Notes under the pieces: generated by a model
The model's database searches: none
Told to the model about the DNA's origin: nothing
Seen by the model: only the letters and a program-made list of their open reading frames with translations
Position numbers and translations under genes: made by a program
Part shown: piece after piece, positions 21,468 through 30,266 of the stretch
How positions within the stretch are numbered: position 1 is the first letter of the stretch
Layout: every line of letters begins with the position of its first letter
NCBI GenBank assembly: GCA_019694215.1
Contig: JAIBCK010000008.1
Coordinates: 1 to 58,231, forward strand
DNA length: 58,231 nucleotides
From: Thermoflexales bacterium
GTDB lineage: Bacteria; Chloroflexota; Anaerolineae; J036; Brachytrichaceae
Direction of reading: 5' to 3'

Positions 21468-23273
21468 ATGGACATTCGTATCGTCAAGCCGACCGGCGCA
21501 CTGGTTCGGGGCAGTCCGACTGCGGAGGGTGTCAACAACATCGTTGGCGTCGCGCACTACGGCGACCTGCTGCGGGGTGCCACGCTGTCCAAGGGCTGGT
21601 GGGCGCTGGCGGGCAGCCGGTTTGTGCTCGCCGCCGAGGCCGTGTCTGCCGGCCCGGGTGCCAACCCGCTTGGCGCGCGTGGGCGGGCTGCGCCGCGCTA
21701 CCAGCCGCTTTCGCAGCGGGATCCGCGCTGGAAGGACCAGTTGCTCGGCAACACGACGGTGCCGACGGTGACCATCGGCGACTATGGCTGTCTGTTGACC
21801 TGCTTCACGATGCTGATCAACTCGGCGCTGGTCAACCCGCTGACACCCGATCAGGTCAACAACCTGCGCAAGGGCAATGGCGGCTACCTGCCGGTGGGTG
21901 CCTACGGTGGCTACGCGGCGCGCTTCAATGTCGATGATGAGACGGCGGGGGCGGTCAAGATCGGGTGGTTTTCCGAGCGCTACGAGCAGGTCGCACCGGA
22001 TGATGTCGTGGCGCGCCTGGTGAGGCATCTCCAGGATGGACAGCCCGCGATTCTGGAGGTTGACTTCTTTCCGTCCGATTCGACGGATCCCGCCTTTCCC
22101 CCCCAGCCCGGCCGCCAGATGCACTTCGTGCTGGCCATTCCAGATGGCGCGTCGCCGTCGTCGATCACGGTCATCGACCCGTGGGATGGCCAGACCAGGT
22201 CAATCACCCCTCGCTTCGGCAAGACGTTGCCCCTGGCCGTTGTGCGGGCCGTGCTGTATGAGAACTGGGCGGACATCCAGCCGCAGCCGCTGCCACCCGG
22301 CCAGCCCGCCCCTCAGCCCGCGCCCGCCCCGCGGCTACCCGCGCCCATCTTGGCTCGGGATATCGGGTTGGGCGTGCATGTGCTGAATGTTGGTCGCAGC
22401 GCGCAACAGGCCTATGACCTCGGTTGCCGATGGTTCACCATCATGGACAGCCCCGACGTGGCCGCCGAGCTGGTGCGCAAGGGTGCCACGGTGCTCTATC
22501 GGCGTTCGCTGCCCAACTACCTGGTGACGCCCGATCAATACATGGCGGCGATTGGCCCGCTGATCCCGGGTGCCTGGTATCTCGGGGTGAATGAAGGTGA
22601 TTCGATCGGCGACGGCGTCAACGACATCCGCAAGCGCGCCGCCTTTGACGTGGCCGTCGCGCGCCTGATCCAGGCGCGAAGTGGGGGACGGGCGAAGTAC
22701 ATCGGCGGCGGCTTTGCCACGGGCACGCCCGATATCACCAACCCCGCGATTTGTGCCGCCCTCCGCGATGGCTACTCGGCTGCCTACAACGAGGGGTTGC
22801 TCCTGTTCAACCTGCACACCTATGTCGGCGCAAAAGAAGGCGCGCGCAGCCTGTTTGCCGAGGATGGCGTGACGTGGTGGGCGAGGCGTTGGGAGTTCCT
22901 GTTCACCCGCTGCGGCTTCGATCCGCGCGTGCGGGGCATCGTGTCCGCCGAATCAGGCCTCGACAATGACGGCGGCTTCATCCACCACAACTACACGCCC
23001 TCGGAATTCAGCGCCTTTGCGCGCCGCTGGCGCGAGGTGCAGGCCCGCCCGGTCATGATCGACAACCGCGACACCCTGGTCGCAGCGGGCAGGGTGCCGC
23101 GCTCGGACTTTGTCGGGCGCTGGAACTCCCCCTATCTCGGCGGAACGTTCTATCAGCTCACGCCGCAGGGCACGCAGGCCTGGGCGCGCTTCAACCTCAC
23201 GCCGTATCTGAACGTGCTGCGCGATGAGATCTGGCCGCTCAAGCCCGACCCGGCCGGCACGGTCTGGGCCTGA
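21468..23273 (+). CDS. C39-like cysteine peptidase fused to a TIM-barrel glycosidase-like domain
   Basis: This is a 601-residue protein. Residues 1-65 resemble a small SH3-like module. Residues about 78-270 form a C39/papain-like peptidase domain: QRDPRWKDQLLG, IGDYGCLLTCFTMLIN with the likely catalytic Cys, MHFVLAIP with His, and VIDPWDG with Asp. A Pro/Ala/Gln linker (about 270-305) leads to a clan-A-like TIM barrel (about 310-600) with YLGVNEGDS and IVSAESGLDN as possible acid/base and nucleophile glutamates. No signal peptide or membrane helix is visible. Similar combinations occur in cell-wall hydrolases and phage-derived lysins. The ATG at 21468 has a GGGGGG ribosome-binding site. Confidence 0.6.
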   Translation: MDIRIVKPTGALVRGSPTAEGVNNIVGVAHYGDLLRGATLSKGWWALAGSRFVLAAEAVSAGPGANPLGARGRAAPRYQPLSQRDPRWKDQLLGNTTVPTVTIGDYGCLLTCFTMLINSALVNPLTPDQVNNLRKGNGGYLPVGAYGGYAARFNVDDETAGAVKIGWFSERYEQVAPDDVVARLVRHLQDGQPAILEVDFFPSDSTDPAFPPQPGRQMHFVLAIPDGASPSSITVIDPWDGQTRSITPRFGKTLPLAVVRAVLYENWADIQPQPLPPGQPAPQPAPAPRLPAPILARDIGLGVHVLNVGRSAQQAYDLGCRWFTIMDSPDVAAELVRKGATVLYRRSLPNYLVTPDQYMAAIGPLIPGAWYLGVNEGDSIGDGVNDIRKRAAFDVAVARLIQARSGGRAKYIGGGFATGTPDITNPAICAALRDGYSAAYNEGLLLFNLHTYVGAKEGARSLFAEDGVTWWARRWEFLFTRCGFDPRVRGIVSAESGLDNDGGFIHHNYTPSEFSAFARRWREVQARPVMIDNRDTLVAAGRVPRSDFVGRWNSPYLGGTFYQLTPQGTQAWARFNLTPYLNVLRDEIWPLKPDPAGTVWA

Positions 23274-23286
23274 GTGCCATCGCGCA

Positions 23287-23321
23287 CCTAGCCCCATACA
23301 AGATACTTGGACTGTGCTAGG
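23287..23321. promoter_or_regulatory. CCTAG dyad with -10-like box upstream of coiled-coil gene 1
   Basis: CCTAG (23287-23291) and CTAGG (23317-23321) form an inverted repeat with 25 nt between. Just inside the left arm is CCTAGCCC-CA-TACAAG, nearly the same as CCTAGCGC-AA-TACAAT on the minus strand at 30266-30251. The rest of the 157-nt gap before the next gene holds nothing recognisable. Confidence 0.45.
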
Positions 23322-23439
23322 TCTGCATTGACGACCTGGCCCGGCGTCGATACCATGCCGTCACATTGACTGGCTGGAATCGATCTTGCGTGTCACAGGA
23401 TGCGCAGCAAACGGTCTCGGCCGGCACCTTGTGACTTAC

Positions 23440-25512
23440 ATGCCGAACCTGCTGAGTGATCCTACTTCGTTGTTGGTGGCCGCCTCCGCCACCCTGCTGG
23501 GCGCATTTCTGCTCGGCCTGCCGTTGATCGGGCTGCTGGCCGGCAAGGCGCGTGTCTGGCGCGCTGAAGCAAAACGGTCTGTTGAAAGTGCGCGACAGGC
23601 CAACCAGGAGCTGGAGCGGGCCATGCGCGTTGCGCAGGAGCGAACCCGTGAGCGCGAGGGCTATCGCGCCCAGTGGCAGAGCGCAAAGGGTCTGCTTGAG
23701 CAGACCCAGGCAGCCCTGGAGGCCGCGCAGAAGCGGGCCCTGGATCTGGATGCGGCAGCGCAGACCACGATCGCGCACAGCGAGCGGGCGCGCCTGATGA
23801 CCCAGGATGCCGAACGTGTCGCCGCCGAGCGCCACCTCACCATCCAAAAACTGGCCGCCCAGCTCGGGGACTTGCAGGCCCGCTACGATCAGACCCAGCG
23901 CCAGGCCTCGGACGCCCAGCATCATGCCACCCGGCTCAACCTTCAAGTGAAGGATTCAAACAGCCGCTTCGAGCGCGCCCAGCGCCTGGCCGCCGAGCAG
24001 CAGGCCGCGATGGCGACGCTCACCCAGCAGCTCAGCCTATCGCAGCAAACGGTCGCGCGCCTGCAGAAGGAAATGGCCGCAGTCGAAACGGCGAGCGCCC
24101 TGCGGCCCGCCATCGAGGCCGAACATCGCCAGTCTCTGGAAGTGTGCGAGGTCCGCATCGCCGAGCTGCGCGGGCAACTGGCCGAACGGGACCGCGACGT
24201 CGAAGCCGCGCGTCGCGACGCCGTCGAGCGCCTGTCCGCCATTGCCACCCTGACGGCCGAGCTGGTTCAGTCCCGCGAAAGCGCCAACCACGCCCGGCTC
24301 TCGCTGTCCGAATATGAGCGACTGCTCGAGCGCGCCGGCCGCGAACTCTCTGCCGCTCAGGCGACGGCGCAGGCGGCGACCGAGCAGGTGGCTGCGCAGG
24401 AGAAGCTGCTGCAGCGCCAGGGCGAGCAAATGACGGCCGCCGCCTCGCGCACGGGGCAGGGGCAGATGGCGGCGCAGCTGGCGACCGCACAGCGTGAGCT
24501 CCAGCGCGCCGAGCAGGTGGCCGCGCAGCGGCTGGCCGTGGCCGATCAGCGCGCGCGGCAGGCCGCCGATCAGGCCACCCTGGCCGAGCGGCTCAAGGCG
24601 CGTCTGGACGAGGCCGAAGCGCGCAGCAACGCCGCCGAGCGCAAGGCCGCCGAGGCGCAGTCCATCATCGAGGCCCTGACGCGCGAGCGCGATGGCCTGG
24701 CCGCCGCACAGCGCACGGCGCGAAGCGAGCTGACCGGGCTGCGCACCGCCTTTGCCGCGGATGCCGATGAGGCTGCGCTGCTCGAACGCGCCCAGGCCCA
24801 GAGCCAGCGCGATGGTGAGCCGGTGCTGACCGTGCTCACCCGCGAGCTGCGCCGGAGCCAGGCCGCCGCCAATCAGGCCACCGACCAGGCGACCAGCCAT
24901 GAGGCCGCGGTGGTCAGCCTGCGCCAGCACGTCAACAGCCTGCAGTCGGCGCTGGAGCGCGCGCAGACCGAGGCCACGGATCGGGCCGGTGCCTGCGAGC
25001 GGCTGGCCACCCAGGTGAGCATGCTCAACCAGCGCCTGGATGCCGCTCAGCGCGACGCCACCCAGCAGCGCGCCATCGTCGAGCGGCTGCGCAAGGGCGC
25101 GAGCGACGAGGACATGCGGCCATCCGCGTCATCCATCCCGTGGCCCACCCGCGAGCCACGGGCACGCACGCGCACGCCGGATCCCGCGCCCGCGCCGGCG
25201 CCCATCCCCGCCGCCGCTCAGAGCGACCTGAGCTATCCCACCTTTTTGCGGCAGGGAACAGGACGTGATGCATCGCGCGACAACACCGATCTAGCATTGT
25301 CCAATGGCACGGTGCAGGCGAAGTTTCAGGGCCTGACAAGGGACATGGCGGAGAAGCTCATCGCGGCCGGCATCCGCACCGTCGACGATCTCAAACTCGC
25401 GTCACCCGAGCGGCTGCGTGACACGATCAAGCCGCCGCTCTTCCGCCGACCGGATTACGCCGGGTGGATCCGCCAGGCCAGACTGATCTCCGAGAGTCGA
25501 CGCATGGACTAG
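23440..25512 (+). CDS. Membrane-anchored long coiled-coil protein with C-terminal helix-hairpin-helix-like module
   Basis: This 690-residue protein has one N-terminal transmembrane helix (about 5-30, LLVAASATLLGAFLLGLPLIGLLAG). About 530 residues follow of nearly uninterrupted Ala/Gln/Glu/Arg-rich coiled coil, then a Pro-rich linker (about 562-590). A compact C-terminal module of about 65 residues (KFQGLTRDMAEKLIAAGIRTVDDLKLASPERL, ending RRPDYAGWIRQARLI) resembles helix-hairpin-helix/DUF4332 folds. The module recurs in the protein at 28136-29290. Starts at GTG 23431 or TTG 23386 are also possible; none has a good ribosome-binding site. It may be an envelope tether or spacer; the function is unknown. 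Confidence 0.75.
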   Translation: MPNLLSDPTSLLVAASATLLGAFLLGLPLIGLLAGKARVWRAEAKRSVESARQANQELERAMRVAQERTREREGYRAQWQSAKGLLEQTQAALEAAQKRALDLDAAAQTTIAHSERARLMTQDAERVAAERHLTIQKLAAQLGDLQARYDQTQRQASDAQHHATRLNLQVKDSNSRFERAQRLAAEQQAAMATLTQQLSLSQQTVARLQKEMAAVETASALRPAIEAEHRQSLEVCEVRIAELRGQLAERDRDVEAARRDAVERLSAIATLTAELVQSRESANHARLSLSEYERLLERAGRELSAAQATAQAATEQVAAQEKLLQRQGEQMTAAASRTGQGQMAAQLATAQRELQRAEQVAAQRLAVADQRARQAADQATLAERLKARLDEAEARSNAAERKAAEAQSIIEALTRERDGLAAAQRTARSELTGLRTAFAADADEAALLERAQAQSQRDGEPVLTVLTRELRRSQAAANQATDQATSHEAAVVSLRQHVNSLQSALERAQTEATDRAGACERLATQVSMLNQRLDAAQRDATQQRAIVERLRKGASDEDMRPSASSIPWPTREPRARTRTPDPAPAPAPIPAAAQSDLSYPTFLRQGTGRDASRDNTDLALSNGTVQAKFQGLTRDMAEKLIAAGIRTVDDLKLASPERLRDTIKPPLFRRPDYAGWIRQARLISESRRMD

Positions 25513-25540
25513 CCGGAAAGGTGTCTGGCGCATGTCGATA

Positions 25541-25574
25541 TAGAATGCTACAATCTGCCTAGCGCGTTACTAGG
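25541..25574 (+). promoter_or_regulatory. Promoter and CCTAG/CTAGG dyad before the HTH-PIN-ATPase operon
   Basis: TAGAAT (25541-25546) and TACAAT (25549-25554) are candidate -10 boxes. They are followed by CCTAGCGCGTTACTAGG, an inverted CCTAG/CTAGG pair with a 7-nt centre (about 25558-25574), ending 11 nt before the ATG at 25586. The dyad is a plausible operator for the HTH protein encoded next. Confidence 0.5.
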
Positions 25575-25585
25575 AAACACGTCGT

Positions 25586-26137
25586 ATGAGCAAGGGCGCA
25601 GCTTCCCCCTTTGACCGGAGTGAATGGCTCACGGTCCGGGAAGCCGCGGATGCAGCAGGCTACAACCAGGAGTACGTTCGGCAACTCGCGCGCGAGGGCG
25701 CGATCGAGGCCCAGAAGCTGGGCTCATCGCTGCTGATCAACCGAGGTTCGCTGATGGACTACCGGTCCGGCATGAGCGGGCAGCCTGCGCGTCGCGGCGC
25801 GACCGCGCGCGCCCCGGAGCCGCCGCCCCGCCTGCCCGGGCTTGCTTCTGCCCGGCCTGCGCCACCCCCGCCACCCGCCATGCCTGCGCTGCCGGAGATC
25901 GACGCGTTGTCCATCGCCGGCACCATCAGCGACGACGACCTGCAGGCGCGCAATGCCGCAGCCATTGCGCTGCTCGAGCGCCTGTCCGCGCCTTCGCCCG
26001 AGGACGGCCAGGCACAACGTGAGACGCTCACCTACCTGGTGAAGGCGCTGGATGACGACCGCGCCGATGGTCGCAAGCTCTTTCCGGATGCGACCACGAC
26101 GGTTCGCCCGGCACCGGCCCGGGGGCGCAAGCCATGA
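25586..26137 (+). CDS. Excisionase/MerR-type HTH protein (putative antitoxin or regulator)
   Basis: This 183-residue protein has an N-terminal helix-turn-helix of the excisionase/DNA-binding-domain class (about 11-58): WLTVREAADAAGYNQEYVRQLAREGAIEAQKLG and a wing-like SSLLINRGSLMDY. A disordered Pro/Ala-rich linker (about 65-110) and a C-terminal helical region (about 115-170) follow. The stop overlaps the start of the PIN-domain gene by ATGA. That coupling and the gene order (DNA-binding protein then PIN) resemble a VapBC-like toxin-antitoxin pair, but the antitoxin assignment is an inference. The CCTAG dyad just upstream may be its binding site. Confidence 0.65.
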   Translation: MSKGAASPFDRSEWLTVREAADAAGYNQEYVRQLAREGAIEAQKLGSSLLINRGSLMDYRSGMSGQPARRGATARAPEPPPRLPGLASARPAPPPPPAMPALPEIDALSIAGTISDDDLQARNAAAIALLERLSAPSPEDGQAQRETLTYLVKALDDDRADGRKLFPDATTTVRPAPARGRKP

Positions 26138-26625
26138 ACATCGTCGACACGCGCACGACCCTGTTCATCCTCGATGCGGGCATGCTCAGCCTGCTGACCA
26201 ACCCGGCCGGCTCCGCCGCGGCGATGGAGTGTCACCGTTGGACGCGTGACCTGCTGCGCCGCGGGGGCCGTTTCGCCATCCCCGAAATCGCGGATTACGA
26301 GGTGCGCCGTGAGCTGCTGCGCGAGGACCTGATGCGCGCGCTCAAAGCACTGGATGACCTGCGCGGTGTGATGTTCTACCTGCCCCTCACCACGGCGGCG
26401 CTGCAGCGCGCGGCCGAGCTGTGGGCGGCGGCGAAGAAATTTGGGCGGCCCGAGCTGGCCGTCGGGTCGCGCGAAGGCGCGCTCGACATGGACGTCATCC
26501 TTGCCGCGCAGGCGCTCGTGGCCGGACGCGCCAGCGGGCTGAACCCCGTCGTCGTGACCACCCATGTCGCGCACCTTGGCATCTTCGCCCAGTCCGACGA
26601 GTGGCACAACCTGCGGGTGGATTGA
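26134..26625 (+). CDS. PIN-domain protein (VapC-like ribonuclease)
   Basis: This 163-residue PIN-domain nuclease has the metal-binding acidic pattern: D14 (LFILDAGML), E51/E56 (IPEIADYE) and D118/D120 (LDMDVILAAQAL). The final strand is TTH144VAHL, where relatives I recall have TTNVGHL, so the fourth acid/amide position is a histidine. It matches the cyanobacterial/Chloroflexota VapC-like subgroup with IPEIADYEVRREL and a long AAELWAxA helix. PIN proteins cut RNA with Mg2+. It overlaps the HTH gene and is followed 6 nt later by the ATPase gene, so it is part of a three-gene operon rather than a free-standing two-gene module. Confidence 0.8.
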   Translation: MNIVDTRTTLFILDAGMLSLLTNPAGSAAAMECHRWTRDLLRRGGRFAIPEIADYEVRRELLREDLMRALKALDDLRGVMFYLPLTTAALQRAAELWAAAKKFGRPELAVGSREGALDMDVILAAQALVAGRASGLNPVVVTTHVAHLGIFAQSDEWHNLRVD

Positions 26626-26631
26626 CCGGCC

Positions 26632-28050
26632 ATGCCGTTCCTCTACACCGCCGCATCCGACCTGCGACGCGCCTGGCCCAACTTTGAGCTGGACCTGCCG
26701 CTCGATTCGCCAGCCGGAGGTGGGCCGAACCCGTTTTACGTCGAGCGCCCGGCCAACCCGATTGCCCGCCTGGAGGAGGAGCTCCTGGCGCCGTATCGGC
26801 TGCCGCCCAAGTACTTCTTCTCGGGCAACCGTGGCTGCGGCAAGTCCAACGAGCTGCGCCGGGTGGCGGGAAATGCCGAAATCCGCGCGCGCTACTTCCC
26901 TGTCCTGTTCAGCATTCGTGATGAGGCGGATGTCAACAACCTGGACTATCGCGACCTGCTGCTGTCCATCGGCGGGCGCATGTATCGCGAGTTCCGGGCA
27001 CGGGGTGGGAAGATCCCAGAGGCGCTCGAGCGCGAACTGACGCACTGGCGAGGGCAGGTGAGCGAGGAGATCGTGCGCACGCGCAAGATGCCCTCTGTCG
27101 ACGTCGATGGCGGGCTGGATGTGTTCTTCGCCCGCCTCGCCACGCGCGTGAAGTTCGAGCCCAGCACGCGCCAGGAGCTGCGCCAGATCATCGAGCGCGG
27201 CATGAGCGAGCTGGCCGAGGCCATCGACCACATCGCCGATGTCATTCAGACCCAGACGCGCAAGACGCCGCTGGTGCTGATCGATGACCTCGACAAGGTT
27301 GACCCGACCACGGCGCGCGCCATCTTTCAGGGCAGCCGCGAGACCATGCTGCGGCCCAACTTCGCCATCGTTTACACGGTGTCGAGCTCGCTCTTCTACA
27401 CCGCCGAGTTTGAGGCGATCCGCGACCGGGCGGTCTTCCTGCCCAACGTAAAATTGCGCAAGCGGGGCTCCAGCCGACGCGACCTCGAGGGCTATGAGAT
27501 CATGCGCGAGACGGTGCGCCGGCGCCTCAACCCCGACCTGATCTCGCCCCGCGCGCTGGATGAGGCCGTCCGTATCAGCGGCGGCGTCTTCCGCGAGCTC
27601 ATGCGCGTGCTGCGTTTTGCCATCACACGCGCGCATCGCACCGGGCGGATCGAGATCGACCACGTGCTGGGCGCCGAGGCCGAGATTCGCGGCGAGTATC
27701 GCCGCATCCTCACCGCCGAGCAGCGCCAGACCCTGCGCGATGTGCGCGCCCGCAACCAGCTCGACGATCCGCAGAAATTGGCGCCGCTGCTTCAGATGCT
27801 GGCCGCCATGGAATACGCCGACGCCGAACCGTGGTGCGACGTGCATCCCGCGCTGGTCAGCCTGCTCGAGGAAGGCGCGGCCAGCCCCGCGCCGCCCACG
27901 GAGTCTGACCCGGTGCCGGCCGATCCGCCCGCCAACACCCGAGCTACCGCGCCGACCCCGGCGCGGCGCAGCGCGTCCGCCACGCGCGCCCGGGCCCGTA
28001 CGGCGGCCCGGCCACGCGATGACGACGACGACGATCGCGCCTTCCGCTAG
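26632..28050 (+). CDS. P-loop ATPase (AAA/STAND-like) of unknown function
   Basis: This 472-residue protein carries an N-terminal PFYVERPANPIARLEEEL lead-in and a Walker A motif GNRGCGKS (65-72). Walker B is LVLIDDLDKVD (D218/D219). A sensor-like TVSSSLFY strand and a helical lid ending FRELMRVLRFAITRAH come next. Residues about 425-472 are low-complexity Pro/Ala/Arg ending in an Asp run. The GxRGxGKSxEL form is typical of KAP/Orc1/STAND-like ATPases used as signal switches or clamp loaders. Position right after HTH and PIN genes suggests it regulates or uses the PIN protein. No transmembrane segment is seen. Confidence 0.75.
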   Translation: MPFLYTAASDLRRAWPNFELDLPLDSPAGGGPNPFYVERPANPIARLEEELLAPYRLPPKYFFSGNRGCGKSNELRRVAGNAEIRARYFPVLFSIRDEADVNNLDYRDLLLSIGGRMYREFRARGGKIPEALERELTHWRGQVSEEIVRTRKMPSVDVDGGLDVFFARLATRVKFEPSTRQELRQIIERGMSELAEAIDHIADVIQTQTRKTPLVLIDDLDKVDPTTARAIFQGSRETMLRPNFAIVYTVSSSLFYTAEFEAIRDRAVFLPNVKLRKRGSSRRDLEGYEIMRETVRRRLNPDLISPRALDEAVRISGGVFRELMRVLRFAITRAHRTGRIEIDHVLGAEAEIRGEYRRILTAEQRQTLRDVRARNQLDDPQKLAPLLQMLAAMEYADAEPWCDVHPALVSLLEEGAASPAPPTESDPVPADPPANTRATAPTPARRSASATRARARTAARPRDDDDDDRAFR

Positions 28051-28079
28051 TTTTGGCGCAGGCGCCGCCACCTCGGCAG

Positions 28080-28116
28080 AAAAAAGCCGCCGCTCAAACT
28101 GAGCGGCGGCTTGCAT
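28080..28116. terminator. Terminator between convergent operons
   Basis: An 11-bp stem GCCGCCGCTCA/TGAGCGGCGGC (28086-28096 and 28100-28110) is flanked on the left by AAAAAA. On the minus strand it is a classic terminator (stem then TTTTTT) for the coiled-coil 2 operon. On the plus strand the T-tract is weak (TTGCATTT). Confidence 0.85.
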
Positions 28117-28135
28117 TTCCCGGTAAGGCGTAGGG

Positions 28136-29290
28136 TCAGGCGACGGGTTGTCCGCTTGCCTCGCGGGCCTGACGGATCCAGTCTGCGTAGTCGGGCTTGC
28201 GCCAGCGCGGCGCACGGATGATCGCCTCCAGCTGGTCGACCGTGGTCGCCGACAAATCGGCGGGGGTGTTGATGCCGTTCTTGGTCAGCTTGAGCGCATA
28301 CATCACCCCGATCCCTTTGATCGCCTGGAGCTTTGAGAACTCGCTGGCCTCCTCGGCGGTGTCCGGGATGGCGCTGCTCGGGATGACGGGCTCGACCAGG
28401 GTTGACCCGGTAGCGTCAGCCGGCGCGTCTGCCACCGTTGGCGGGGCCGTGTCGACGGCGGTCAGGGGCAGGGCCGCGCCGAGCGAGGCGATGCGCTGCC
28501 CAACGCTTTCTGCCGCGCCACTCAGGTCGCCGCGCAGCGCGCGCGTCGCGTCCTCGTCCAGGCGGGGCGGGGCGGGGTTGGGCGCCGTCGAGTCGGTCGC
28601 GTCGGCCAGCCGGCGGCGCAGCGCCGCCATATACGAGCCCAGTGACGATACGCCGCTCTCCAGCTCCGAGGCCGAGAAGTCGACCTCGGCGAGGCGCGCG
28701 CGGTAGCGGCTGATCTGTGCGTTGGCGTTGGCCAGCAGCGACTGGCGCTCACTGGCTGTGCTCTGAAGGTCGGCCAACCGCACCTCGAGGTCGCTCATCC
28801 GCAGGTTGGCCTTGTTGAGCGTGGACTGTCGTTCGGCGACGAGGGCTTCGAGGTTGACGTTGGCGGCACGCAAGGCCTCAACACTTGCGCGCGCCTCCTT
28901 GACCTGCGTGCCAAGGTCCTCGACCTGCTTCTCAGAGGCACGCCAGGCGGCGCGGACCTGATCGAGCTGGCGCTGGATCGAGCGGATCTGATTCTCCAGC
29001 AGGCCGATCTCCTGCTTGCGGGTGTCGAGCTCGCCGAGGGCGCGCTCGCGCTCGCTGACGGCCTGCGCGCGGGCGTTGACCGCTGCCTCGTTCGCCAGTC
29101 GCAGCTGCTCGGCCTCGGCCTTGCGCGAGCGGGCCAGGCGCATCACGCCAAAGCGGCCGGCCGCGATCCCTCCGGCGAAGAGCACCAGCGCCAGCGCAGC
29201 CACGAAGATGGCCAGCGGCACTTCCGGCGCACCCTCCTGAAAAGCGGGCGCAAACGCGGCGGTCAGGGGAAGAAGCATTTGATTGATCAT
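28136..29290 (-). CDS. Membrane-anchored coiled-coil protein 2 with the same C-terminal module
   Basis: This 384-residue protein has an N-terminal transmembrane helix (about 20-45) and about 180 residues of coiled coil (to about 230, EKQVEDLGTQVKEARASVEAL and similar). A linker leads to a C-terminal module (about 320-380) FSKLQAIKGIGVMYALKLTKNGINTPADLSA ending RKPDYADWIRQAR. That end matches the coiled-coil 1 protein (RRPDYAGWIRQAR) position for position. The KGIGVMYALKL segment is a better helix-hairpin-helix fit than its paralogue's. I chose the ATG at 29290, which overlaps the upstream gene (ATGA). The function is unknown. Confidence 0.75.
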   Translation of the reverse strand: MINQMLLPLTAAFAPAFQEGAPEVPLAIFVAALALVLFAGGIAAGRFGVMRLARSRKAEAEQLRLANEAAVNARAQAVSERERALGELDTRKQEIGLLENQIRSIQRQLDQVRAAWRASEKQVEDLGTQVKEARASVEALRAANVNLEALVAERQSTLNKANLRMSDLEVRLADLQSTASERQSLLANANAQISRYRARLAEVDFSASELESGVSSLGSYMAALRRRLADATDSTAPNPAPPRLDEDATRALRGDLSGAAESVGQRIASLGAALPLTAVDTAPPTVADAPADATGSTLVEPVIPSSAIPDTAEEASEFSKLQAIKGIGVMYALKLTKNGINTPADLSATTVDQLEAIIRAPRWRKPDYADWIRQAREASGQPVA

Positions 29291-30240
29291 TGGCTGCGGG
29301 TGGATGACGCGCTCGGCGGTTCCCCGTCGATGCGCAACCGGACGATGTTTCCCAACACGTTGAACCAGAACGGCGAGCCCATGCTCACCGCGACCACGGT
29401 GAAGGCGATGCCGGCCAGCTTGACGAGCCAACCGTCCAGGCTGAGGGGGACGGCGCGCGCATCACCGGCGACCCGGCGATCCGCCTGCCAGCCGACGGGC
29501 AGGGTGGTCAGGTCGACGCGCGTGAGCGCCGCGTTGACCGAGACCAGGGTGTCCCAATTCGTGCCCGGCAGCGCGCCGCGCACGGCTTCGGCAGCGGCCG
29601 CCGAGACGGCGACGCGCGTGTTGCTGTCGGCATAGAGCGAGTTCGCCACCATCAGCATGTCGGCGTTGGTGACCAGCGCGATGGTCACCGCGATGCCAAC
29701 GGTGATCTTCTGAGCCAGGCGCTTGTACCAGCCGGCGACGCGCTCCATGGTGTCGTTGAACCACTTCTCGAGGGCCTCGCGGATCTTGCCGACATCGCCC
29801 GCGGCCGAGTCGATCAGCGTCACCAGCGAGCGCTTGAGGTCGTCATACTCGGGTGGCAGCGAGATGGCGACGTTGCCCAGCTCGGCCATCAGCTTCTGAC
29901 GGTCCGGCGAATCCGGGGCCACCGTGTCGACCAGGCTGTCCATCAGCGCCGAGGCGAACACCGAGGCCGGGATGTAGGGCGGGCGGGGCTTGCGCCGCAG
30001 CAGGCGGTCGAGGGTCGTTGGCTTTGTCAGTGAGGTCACCAACGGGTGAGCGTATACTTGCCCCGCTAGCCGTTCGCCTGCCGGATCATTCAGCATGCCG
30101 CGGATGCCCTGTTCGAGGGTGCGCCCGCGCAGCGAGAAGAATCCCGCAATGGCCTCGTTGAGCATGCTCGTCACAAGACTCAAGGAGAGAAAGAGGAAGA
30201 CGACGCCTATGACGACATCCAATATTGTTGATCCAAGCAT
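29287..30240 (-). CDS. Integral membrane protein of an uncharacterised family
   Basis: This 317-residue protein has an N-terminal helix (about 5-30), then RGRTLEQGIRGMLNDPAG, a cytosolic helical region, and FNDTMERVAGWYKRLAQKITVGIAVTIALVTNADMLMVANSLYAD (second helix). A soluble domain and a third helix ending in AVSMGSPFWFNVLGNIVRLR follow. I recognise this as a widespread bacterial hypothetical family marked by ERVSGWYKR and GxPFWF. I know no established function. It is the first gene of the operon with coiled-coil protein 2. The ATG is 10 nt from a TACAAT box, leaderless in style. Confidence 0.75.
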   Translation of the reverse strand: MLGSTILDVVIGVVFLFLSLSLVTSMLNEAIAGFFSLRGRTLEQGIRGMLNDPAGERLAGQVYAHPLVTSLTKPTTLDRLLRRKPRPPYIPASVFASALMDSLVDTVAPDSPDRQKLMAELGNVAISLPPEYDDLKRSLVTLIDSAAGDVGKIREALEKWFNDTMERVAGWYKRLAQKITVGIAVTIALVTNADMLMVANSLYADSNTRVAVSAAAAEAVRGALPGTNWDTLVSVNAALTRVDLTTLPVGWQADRRVAGDARAVPLSLDGWLVKLAGIAFTVVAVSMGSPFWFNVLGNIVRLRIDGEPPSASSTRSQ

Positions 30241-30250
30241 CTTGGGCGTG

Positions 30251-30266
30251 ATTGTATTGCGCTAGG
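30251..30266 (-). promoter_or_regulatory. CCTAGCGC-AA-TACAAT promoter element
   Basis: On the minus strand CCTAGCGC is followed after 2 nt by TACAAT (30256-30251), which ends 10 nt before the ATG at 30240. The same arrangement is upstream of coiled-coil gene 1 (23287-23302), and the CCTAGCGC octamer recurs before the HTH gene (about 25558). Confidence 0.5.

Follow-up and report, generated by a model that had tools for sequence, protein, structure and literature searches.

Do the closely spaced genes that surround a P-loop ATPase gene in a Thermoflexales bacterium make up a single device, or several that lie together? The stretch in question (the window, below) is 58,231 nucleotides (nt) long, covers positions 1 to 58,231 of contig JAIBCK010000008.1 (assembly GCA_019694215.1) and comes from a genome of 3.4 Mb (G000). 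In it, genes for a helix-turn-helix (HTH) protein, a PIN-domain protein and the ATPase are bracketed by genes for two transmembrane (TM) coiled-coil proteins, CC1 and CC2, and the initial annotation had taken them for a membrane-anchored scaffold that controls the PIN RNase through the ATPase. Our analyses separate the PIN gene from this scheme. The reading that we tentatively favour is that of a composite block, in which a toxin-antitoxin pair sits inside a chloroflexotal set of ATPase, coiled-coil, hydrolase-like and three-TM (3TM) genes, and for this set the gene neighbourhoods suggest a mechanism of wall control at the envelope. The block is laid out as follows:

21468..23273, + strand: hydrolase-like protein; weak C39-like peptidase region ahead of an unassigned C-terminal part; signal peptide not evident
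23288..23301, + strand: promoter-like motif CTAGNNCNATACAA 5' of CC1; kept in the congener; pattern picked post hoc
23440..25512, + strand: CC1; N-terminal TM segment, long coiled coil, C-terminal helix-hairpin-helix (HhH) module
25586..26137, + strand: antitoxin-like HTH_17/excisionase protein; constant C-terminal tail (..LDDDRADGRKLFP)
26134..26625, + strand: putative PIN-domain toxin; 4-nt (ATGA) overlap with the antitoxin gene
26632..28050, + strand: predicted AAA+ switch ATPase; GNRGCGKS, LVLIDDLDK, C-terminal winged helix, WCDVHP motif, disordered tail
28084..28112, no strand: terminator hairpin between the convergent operons; bidirectional, 13-pair stem, T tracts
28136..29290, - strand: CC2; TM segment, coiled coil, HhH module (PF14520, 29.1 bits)
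29287..30240, - strand: 3TM membrane protein; conserved motifs around WF(N/D)..M.R..GWYKR and GAPFWF(D/N)
30252..30265, - strand: promoter-like motif CTAGNNCNATACAA 5' of 3TM; overlaps a predicted promoter, TTGCCA-16-TACAAT

All six genes of the initial annotation, from CC1 to 3TM, were confirmed with their positions and spacings. The ATPase gene starts 6 nt after the PIN gene, and CC2 and 3TM form, as had been described, a second operon on the opposite strand, convergent with the first, its genes joined by an ATGA overlap. The conserved gene order had been given correctly for these six genes, but the hydrolase-like gene (21468-23273), which belongs to the same order, had been overlooked. By hydropathy, CC1 and CC2 have one TM segment each and 3TM has three. 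An Rfam scan of the whole window gave no match, and the operon was not found described in the literature searched, which covers the field in part.

The HTH-PIN pair

The proposal that the ATPase controls the PIN RNase is not borne out by other genomes. Neighbours were counted in 75 ATPase loci besides the window (61 from genome contigs, plus others), and a PIN gene adjoins the ATPase in one of them, that of the congener G005; the two genes lie apart in the other 74 and in G003, a genome of another genus of the same family. Separate occurrence, which the initial annotation itself had set against a single ATPase/PIN device, is also what the PIN genes show: an ATPase is nearby in none of ten other Chloroflexota PIN loci examined, and in all ten a small gene lies directly upstream of the PIN gene, usually with a 4-nt overlap. 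This overlap of HTH and PIN genes is found in the window, the congener, G003, most of the Chloroflexota loci and two plasmids, the pair being also carried by plasmids of the cyanobacteria Pseudanabaena and Nostoc. In our survey of the phylum, the PIN family was present in 16 of 400 genomes.

The HTH protein scores above the cut-offs of Pfam HTH_17 (28.5 bits, cut-off 27) and of the NCBIfam 'excise' family (29.4 bits, cut-off 28.8). The window PIN protein stays below the cut-off of PF01850 (18.3 bits, cut-off 23.6), which its G003 orthologue passes at 25.8 bits; its residues D14, D118 and D120 are invariant among the PIN sequences compared, and a PDB sequence search with the PIN profile returned nothing useful. 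The proteins encoded upstream in the ten PIN loci have differing N-termini (HTH_17; a ribbon-helix-helix-like start, e.g. MTSLTIELPPDLYERL; others) and a common C-terminal tail (e.g. ..DANRTSYRKLFP). When a tail profile was built from the window, G005 and G003, nine of the ten distant members outscored every shuffled sequence, and the member from L181 did not. Judged from its sequence, the HTH-PIN pair is an autonomous, modular type II toxin-antitoxin pair, whose putative antitoxin joins a variable DNA-binding head to a constant tail.

The combination of PIN with truncated MerR already appears among the type II systems listed by Makarova et al. (2009, PMC2701414). As in that type, which is of the VapBC class, a MerR-like HTH antitoxin gene lies here directly upstream of the PIN gene, and there is a further small domain, presumed to bind PIN. 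The pair described here differs in that its constant tail, which resembles a PIN-binding region, lies at the C-terminus and is combined with various heads in other genomes, and in that it sits inserted in an ATPase operon. Since neither G003 nor other ATPase loci have HTH-PIN genes between the scaffold gene and the ATPase, the position of the pair between CC1 and the ATPase is best read as an insertion, a loss in G003 being possible as well. The pair would be an independent stress or addiction module, maybe co-transcribed, and not the output of the ATPase.

The ATPase and its scaffold

What is left of the block when the pair is set aside? The full block is found in the same order in G005, where the hydrolase-like gene is on a separate contig; the two contigs overlap by exactly 127 nt, which places this gene upstream of CC1, as in the window and in G003. 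We computed dN/dS between the window genome and G005 for the six block genes, and the values (PIN 0.075, ATPase 0.084, 3TM 0.205, HTH 0.214, CC2 0.254, CC1 0.314) show that all six are under purifying selection. In G003 every part of the block is present, but over three loci: hydrolase-like gene, CC1 and ATPase in one run (L020), whose first two genes share an ATGA overlap, the HTH-PIN pair in a second (L039) and the 3TM-CC2 pair in a third (L040). The complete block is conserved within the genus and not beyond. PIN and 3TM were found in only three of the 28 genomes of the order (the window genome, G005 and G003), while the ATPase family is present in 13 of the 28, mostly as distant members, and in 65 of 298 genomes of the class.

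Among 27 ATPase homologues, the P-loop (GNRGCGKS) and Walker B (LVLIDDLDK) regions are invariant or near-invariant, and a C-terminal W.D.HP motif is common to all. The predicted model (predicted local distance difference test, pLDDT, 74; predicted template modelling score, pTM, 0.73) matches TnsC, ORC/Cdc6, PABY2304, CED-4 and NRC4 with Z scores of 14-16.6 over about 250-290 residues. On this model the protein is an AAA+ ATPase with an ORC/TnsC/CED-4-like fold, a common fold that shows no function. Its best Pfam scores lie below cut-off (AAA_16 20.3, cut-off 32.6; KAP 15.9, cut-off 20), the NCBIfam model of the Sll1717 P-loop ATPase is not reached (19.1 bits, cut-off 75), of the STAND signature (GxP, hhGRExE) the GxP motif was not seen in it, and a PDB sequence search with the ATPase profile gave nothing useful; some relatives do pass Pfam (AAA_16 in L021; NPHP3_N and KAP in L016). 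The model resembles STAND and initiator AAA+ proteins (TnsC, ORC/Cdc6, PABY2304, CED-4) in its P-loop, Walker B and C-terminal winged helix. Unlike them, the window ATPase reaches no Pfam family cut-off and, instead of a transposon, replication or apoptosome context, is linked to scaffold and cell-wall genes. A phage origin of the ATPase was rejected, as phage records held no match to it.

Across the 75 loci, a conserved partner domain is encoded in 64, mostly by the very next gene downstream of the ATPase, where it is fused to tetratricopeptide repeats (TPRs), and an MraZ-like gene is found in 49; many loci also have a histidine kinase and a NarL-type regulator. In the Anaerolineae loci L046-L096 a conserved set is found of histidine kinase, NarL regulator, an extra MraZ-like gene, ATPase and TPR proteins, and it is the N-terminus of these TPR proteins that carries the partner domain, which is undescribed. 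A conserved second gene following the ATPase relatives, possibly a degenerate partner, recalls the nSTAND2 two-gene conflict system (Kaur et al. 2021, PMC8195603), from which the window block differs in having no second STAND gene. The partner domain as an inactive STAND was rejected, since hhalign detected no similarity to the ATPase. In L043 (8831-13067) a gene for a TIR-pentapeptide protein is followed by an ATPase relative, a stand-alone partner domain and a ParA-like ATPase. On cyanobacterial plasmids (L016-L018), distant ATPase relatives precede WD40-repeat or other giant proteins, and in L016 NB-ARC and TIR genes are near.

The initial annotation's membrane-scaffolded ATPase system agrees with the CC1-ATPase run (L020) and the CC2-3TM pair (L040) of G003 and with the 3TM genes found near the ATPase in nine other loci; the theme of scaffold, ATPase and 3TM is recurrent, but the PIN protein as its output is not supported. 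The terminal module that was said to be shared by the two coiled-coil proteins is real, far above shuffles (local score 104, against 23 +/- 4.5), and is an HhH module, but one of a kind so frequent in the phylum that it does not prove pairing. Of 400 Chloroflexota genomes, 90 have related modules, and the window genome has three further matches; because of this frequency the sharing is weak evidence that CC1 and CC2 act as a pair. The TM-coiled-coil-HhH architecture is common and multi-copy in Chloroflexota (L187-L201). That promoter elements recur was partly right: CTAGNNCNATACAA has two copies in the 3.4-Mb genome, at 23288 (5' of CC1) and 30252 (5' of 3TM), but this count is post hoc, as the pattern was built from the block's own sites. 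The motif also lies 5' of CC1 in the congener.

The 3TM family and cell-wall hydrolases

3TM matched no Pfam, NCBIfam or PHROG entry, its model has a pLDDT of 69 (modest confidence), and a fold search was uninformative (no Foldseek match with E <= 0.001; best Z 5.0). A 3TM relative lies within about 10 kb of the ATPase in ten of the 75 loci, one of them the congener. The nine outside this genus, with L163, represent about four distinct arrangements, and against these nine loci we estimate that some 0.4 would be expected by chance, at about 1.5 3TM genes per genome. GH25 lysozyme genes with an SH3 domain (Pfam) occur in nine of the 75 loci; where GH25 is directly upstream of the ATPase, seven of eight loci also have 3TM downstream, the eighth locus being incomplete. 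In a second arrangement (L091, L163), the 3TM relative lies upstream of a partner protein, a histidine kinase, an MraZ-like gene and the ATPase.

Outside Chloroflexota, 3TM neighbours were surveyed in plasmid records, a small sample, and relatives of about 30% identity were found on plasmids of Rhizobium, Hymenobacter, Vitreoscilla, Caballeronia, Paracoccus and cyanobacteria. The 3TM relative is followed by an N-acetylmuramoyl-L-alanine amidase gene on the Hymenobacter and Caballeronia plasmids and preceded by one for a cell wall hydrolase on a R. phaseoli plasmid (loci of these pairs: L217, L219, L224); in Rhizobium NXC14 a patatin gene adjoins it. The hydrolase pairs span Proteobacteria and Bacteroidota. 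In control stretches of the same plasmids, the 113 genes included one cell-wall hydrolase. By a simple hydropathy measure, the hydrolases beside 3TM relatives have no clear signal peptide. The contexts in Vitreoscilla, Paracoccus, R. rosettiformans and Agrobacterium had no cell-wall hydrolase, and the two amidase pairs, which resemble one another (44% and 60%), may be one event. In L153 (6333-10032), a 3TM relative is divergent from genes that by eye resemble a contractile tail sheath and tube of the injection-system type.

In phage holin-endolysin pairs a leaderless wall hydrolase stands beside a multi-TM protein. Some 3TM relatives recall them in adjoining seemingly leaderless wall hydrolases, the window's own hydrolase-like gene being weakly assigned, and they differ in that their genes are chromosomal or on plasmids, in that 3TM is larger and has a soluble domain, and in the additional ATPase and scaffold genes.

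Competing readings of the block

How could these parts work together? In the composite block that we favour, the core is an AAA+ ATPase gene co-inherited with a hydrolase-like and a TM-coiled-coil-HhH gene and facing an operon of a second TM-coiled-coil-HhH gene and 3TM. Driven by nucleotides, the ATPase would switch the assembly of a membrane-tethered scaffold, made up of coiled-coil proteins in the window and of TPR partners in other Anaerolineae. ATPase, scaffold and 3TM together would time the access to the wall, or the action on it, of a leaderless cytoplasmic enzyme that targets the cell wall, the outcome being envelope remodelling or regulated lysis under stress. Such remodelling or lysis is a likelier theme for the block than a single RNase machine. 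A broader form of the proposal, which we consider doubtful, is a bacterial device unrelated to phages: from a membrane-anchored scaffold, an ORC/CED-4-like ATPase would gate leaderless cell-wall hydrolases through 3TM, the member of an undescribed family, for programmed envelope lysis or remodelling, the hydrolases (GH25, amidase, cell wall hydrolase, C39-like) being exchangeable across phyla.

Several points weigh against this mechanism. The mechanism is inferred from gene neighbourhoods, 3TM is near the ATPase in just ten of the 75 loci, other 3TM paralogues lie in unrelated contexts, and in G003 the 3TM-CC2 pair is unlinked from the ATPase. The hydrolase-like protein is weakly assigned, with 15.6 bits to PF13529 (cut-off 24); it was rejected as a GH25 relative, showing no relation by profile comparison, and a PDB sequence search with the C39-like profile gave nothing useful. 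Finally, the partner domain had no match in the window genome, the congener or G003, in a search run without a positive control, so that the window version may work differently; with the domain unmatched in the window genome and G003, the coiled-coil proteins may fill there the scaffold role of the TPR partner.

The alternative that survives best, which we nevertheless think unlikely, is a counter-invader (abortive infection) system of the STAND-conflict type, in which the ATPase senses infection, the scaffold assembles and a lytic or other effector kills the cell. A CED-4/NRC-like fold is among the best ATPase matches, two-gene STAND systems have been described (PMC8195603), and such a role would suit both L043, where a TIR-pentapeptide gene precedes the ATPase, and the cyanobacterial plasmid on which an ATPase relative has NB-ARC, TIR and WD40 genes as neighbours. 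However, PADLOC assigned no family, giving coiled-coil cross-hits and weak mad1/mad8 matches only, the ATPase has no match in phage records, and its synteny with histidine kinase, NarL regulator and MraZ-like genes is strongly kept across Anaerolineae. Next comes chance, on which an ATPase-CC1 unit, a toxin-antitoxin pair and a 3TM-CC2 pair with unrelated jobs are adjacent in one genus. The three places that the parts occupy in G003 and the generic HhH module speak for it, but we hold it improbable given the nine 3TM-ATPase loci outside the genus, in about four arrangements with some 0.4 expected by our estimate, and the rare promoter-like motif that precedes CC1 and 3TM alike. A housekeeping regulator of cell division or morphology, with no lysis, would explain the MraZ-like gene next to the ATPase in 49 of the 75 loci and the small 3TM paralogue of L169 near a dcw cluster, Rex and MreB-like genes (named by eye); the patchy presence of the ATPase in the class makes this quite unlikely. 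Control of the PIN RNase by membrane scaffold and ATPase as one device, to which the tight HTH-PIN-ATPase spacing and the low dN/dS of PIN and ATPase had pointed, is very unlikely, as PIN-ATPase adjacency is confined to one genus, the PIN protein has its own putative antitoxin and G003 holds PIN and ATPase unlinked.

A known toxin-antitoxin module is now separated from a little-described chloroflexotal ATPase operon, and 3TM emerges as a widespread, as yet unnamed membrane family with leaderless cell-wall hydrolases as recurrent neighbours. Should this link be real, bacteria would have a way, independent of phages and open to testing, of gating their own wall hydrolases with a STAND-like switch.

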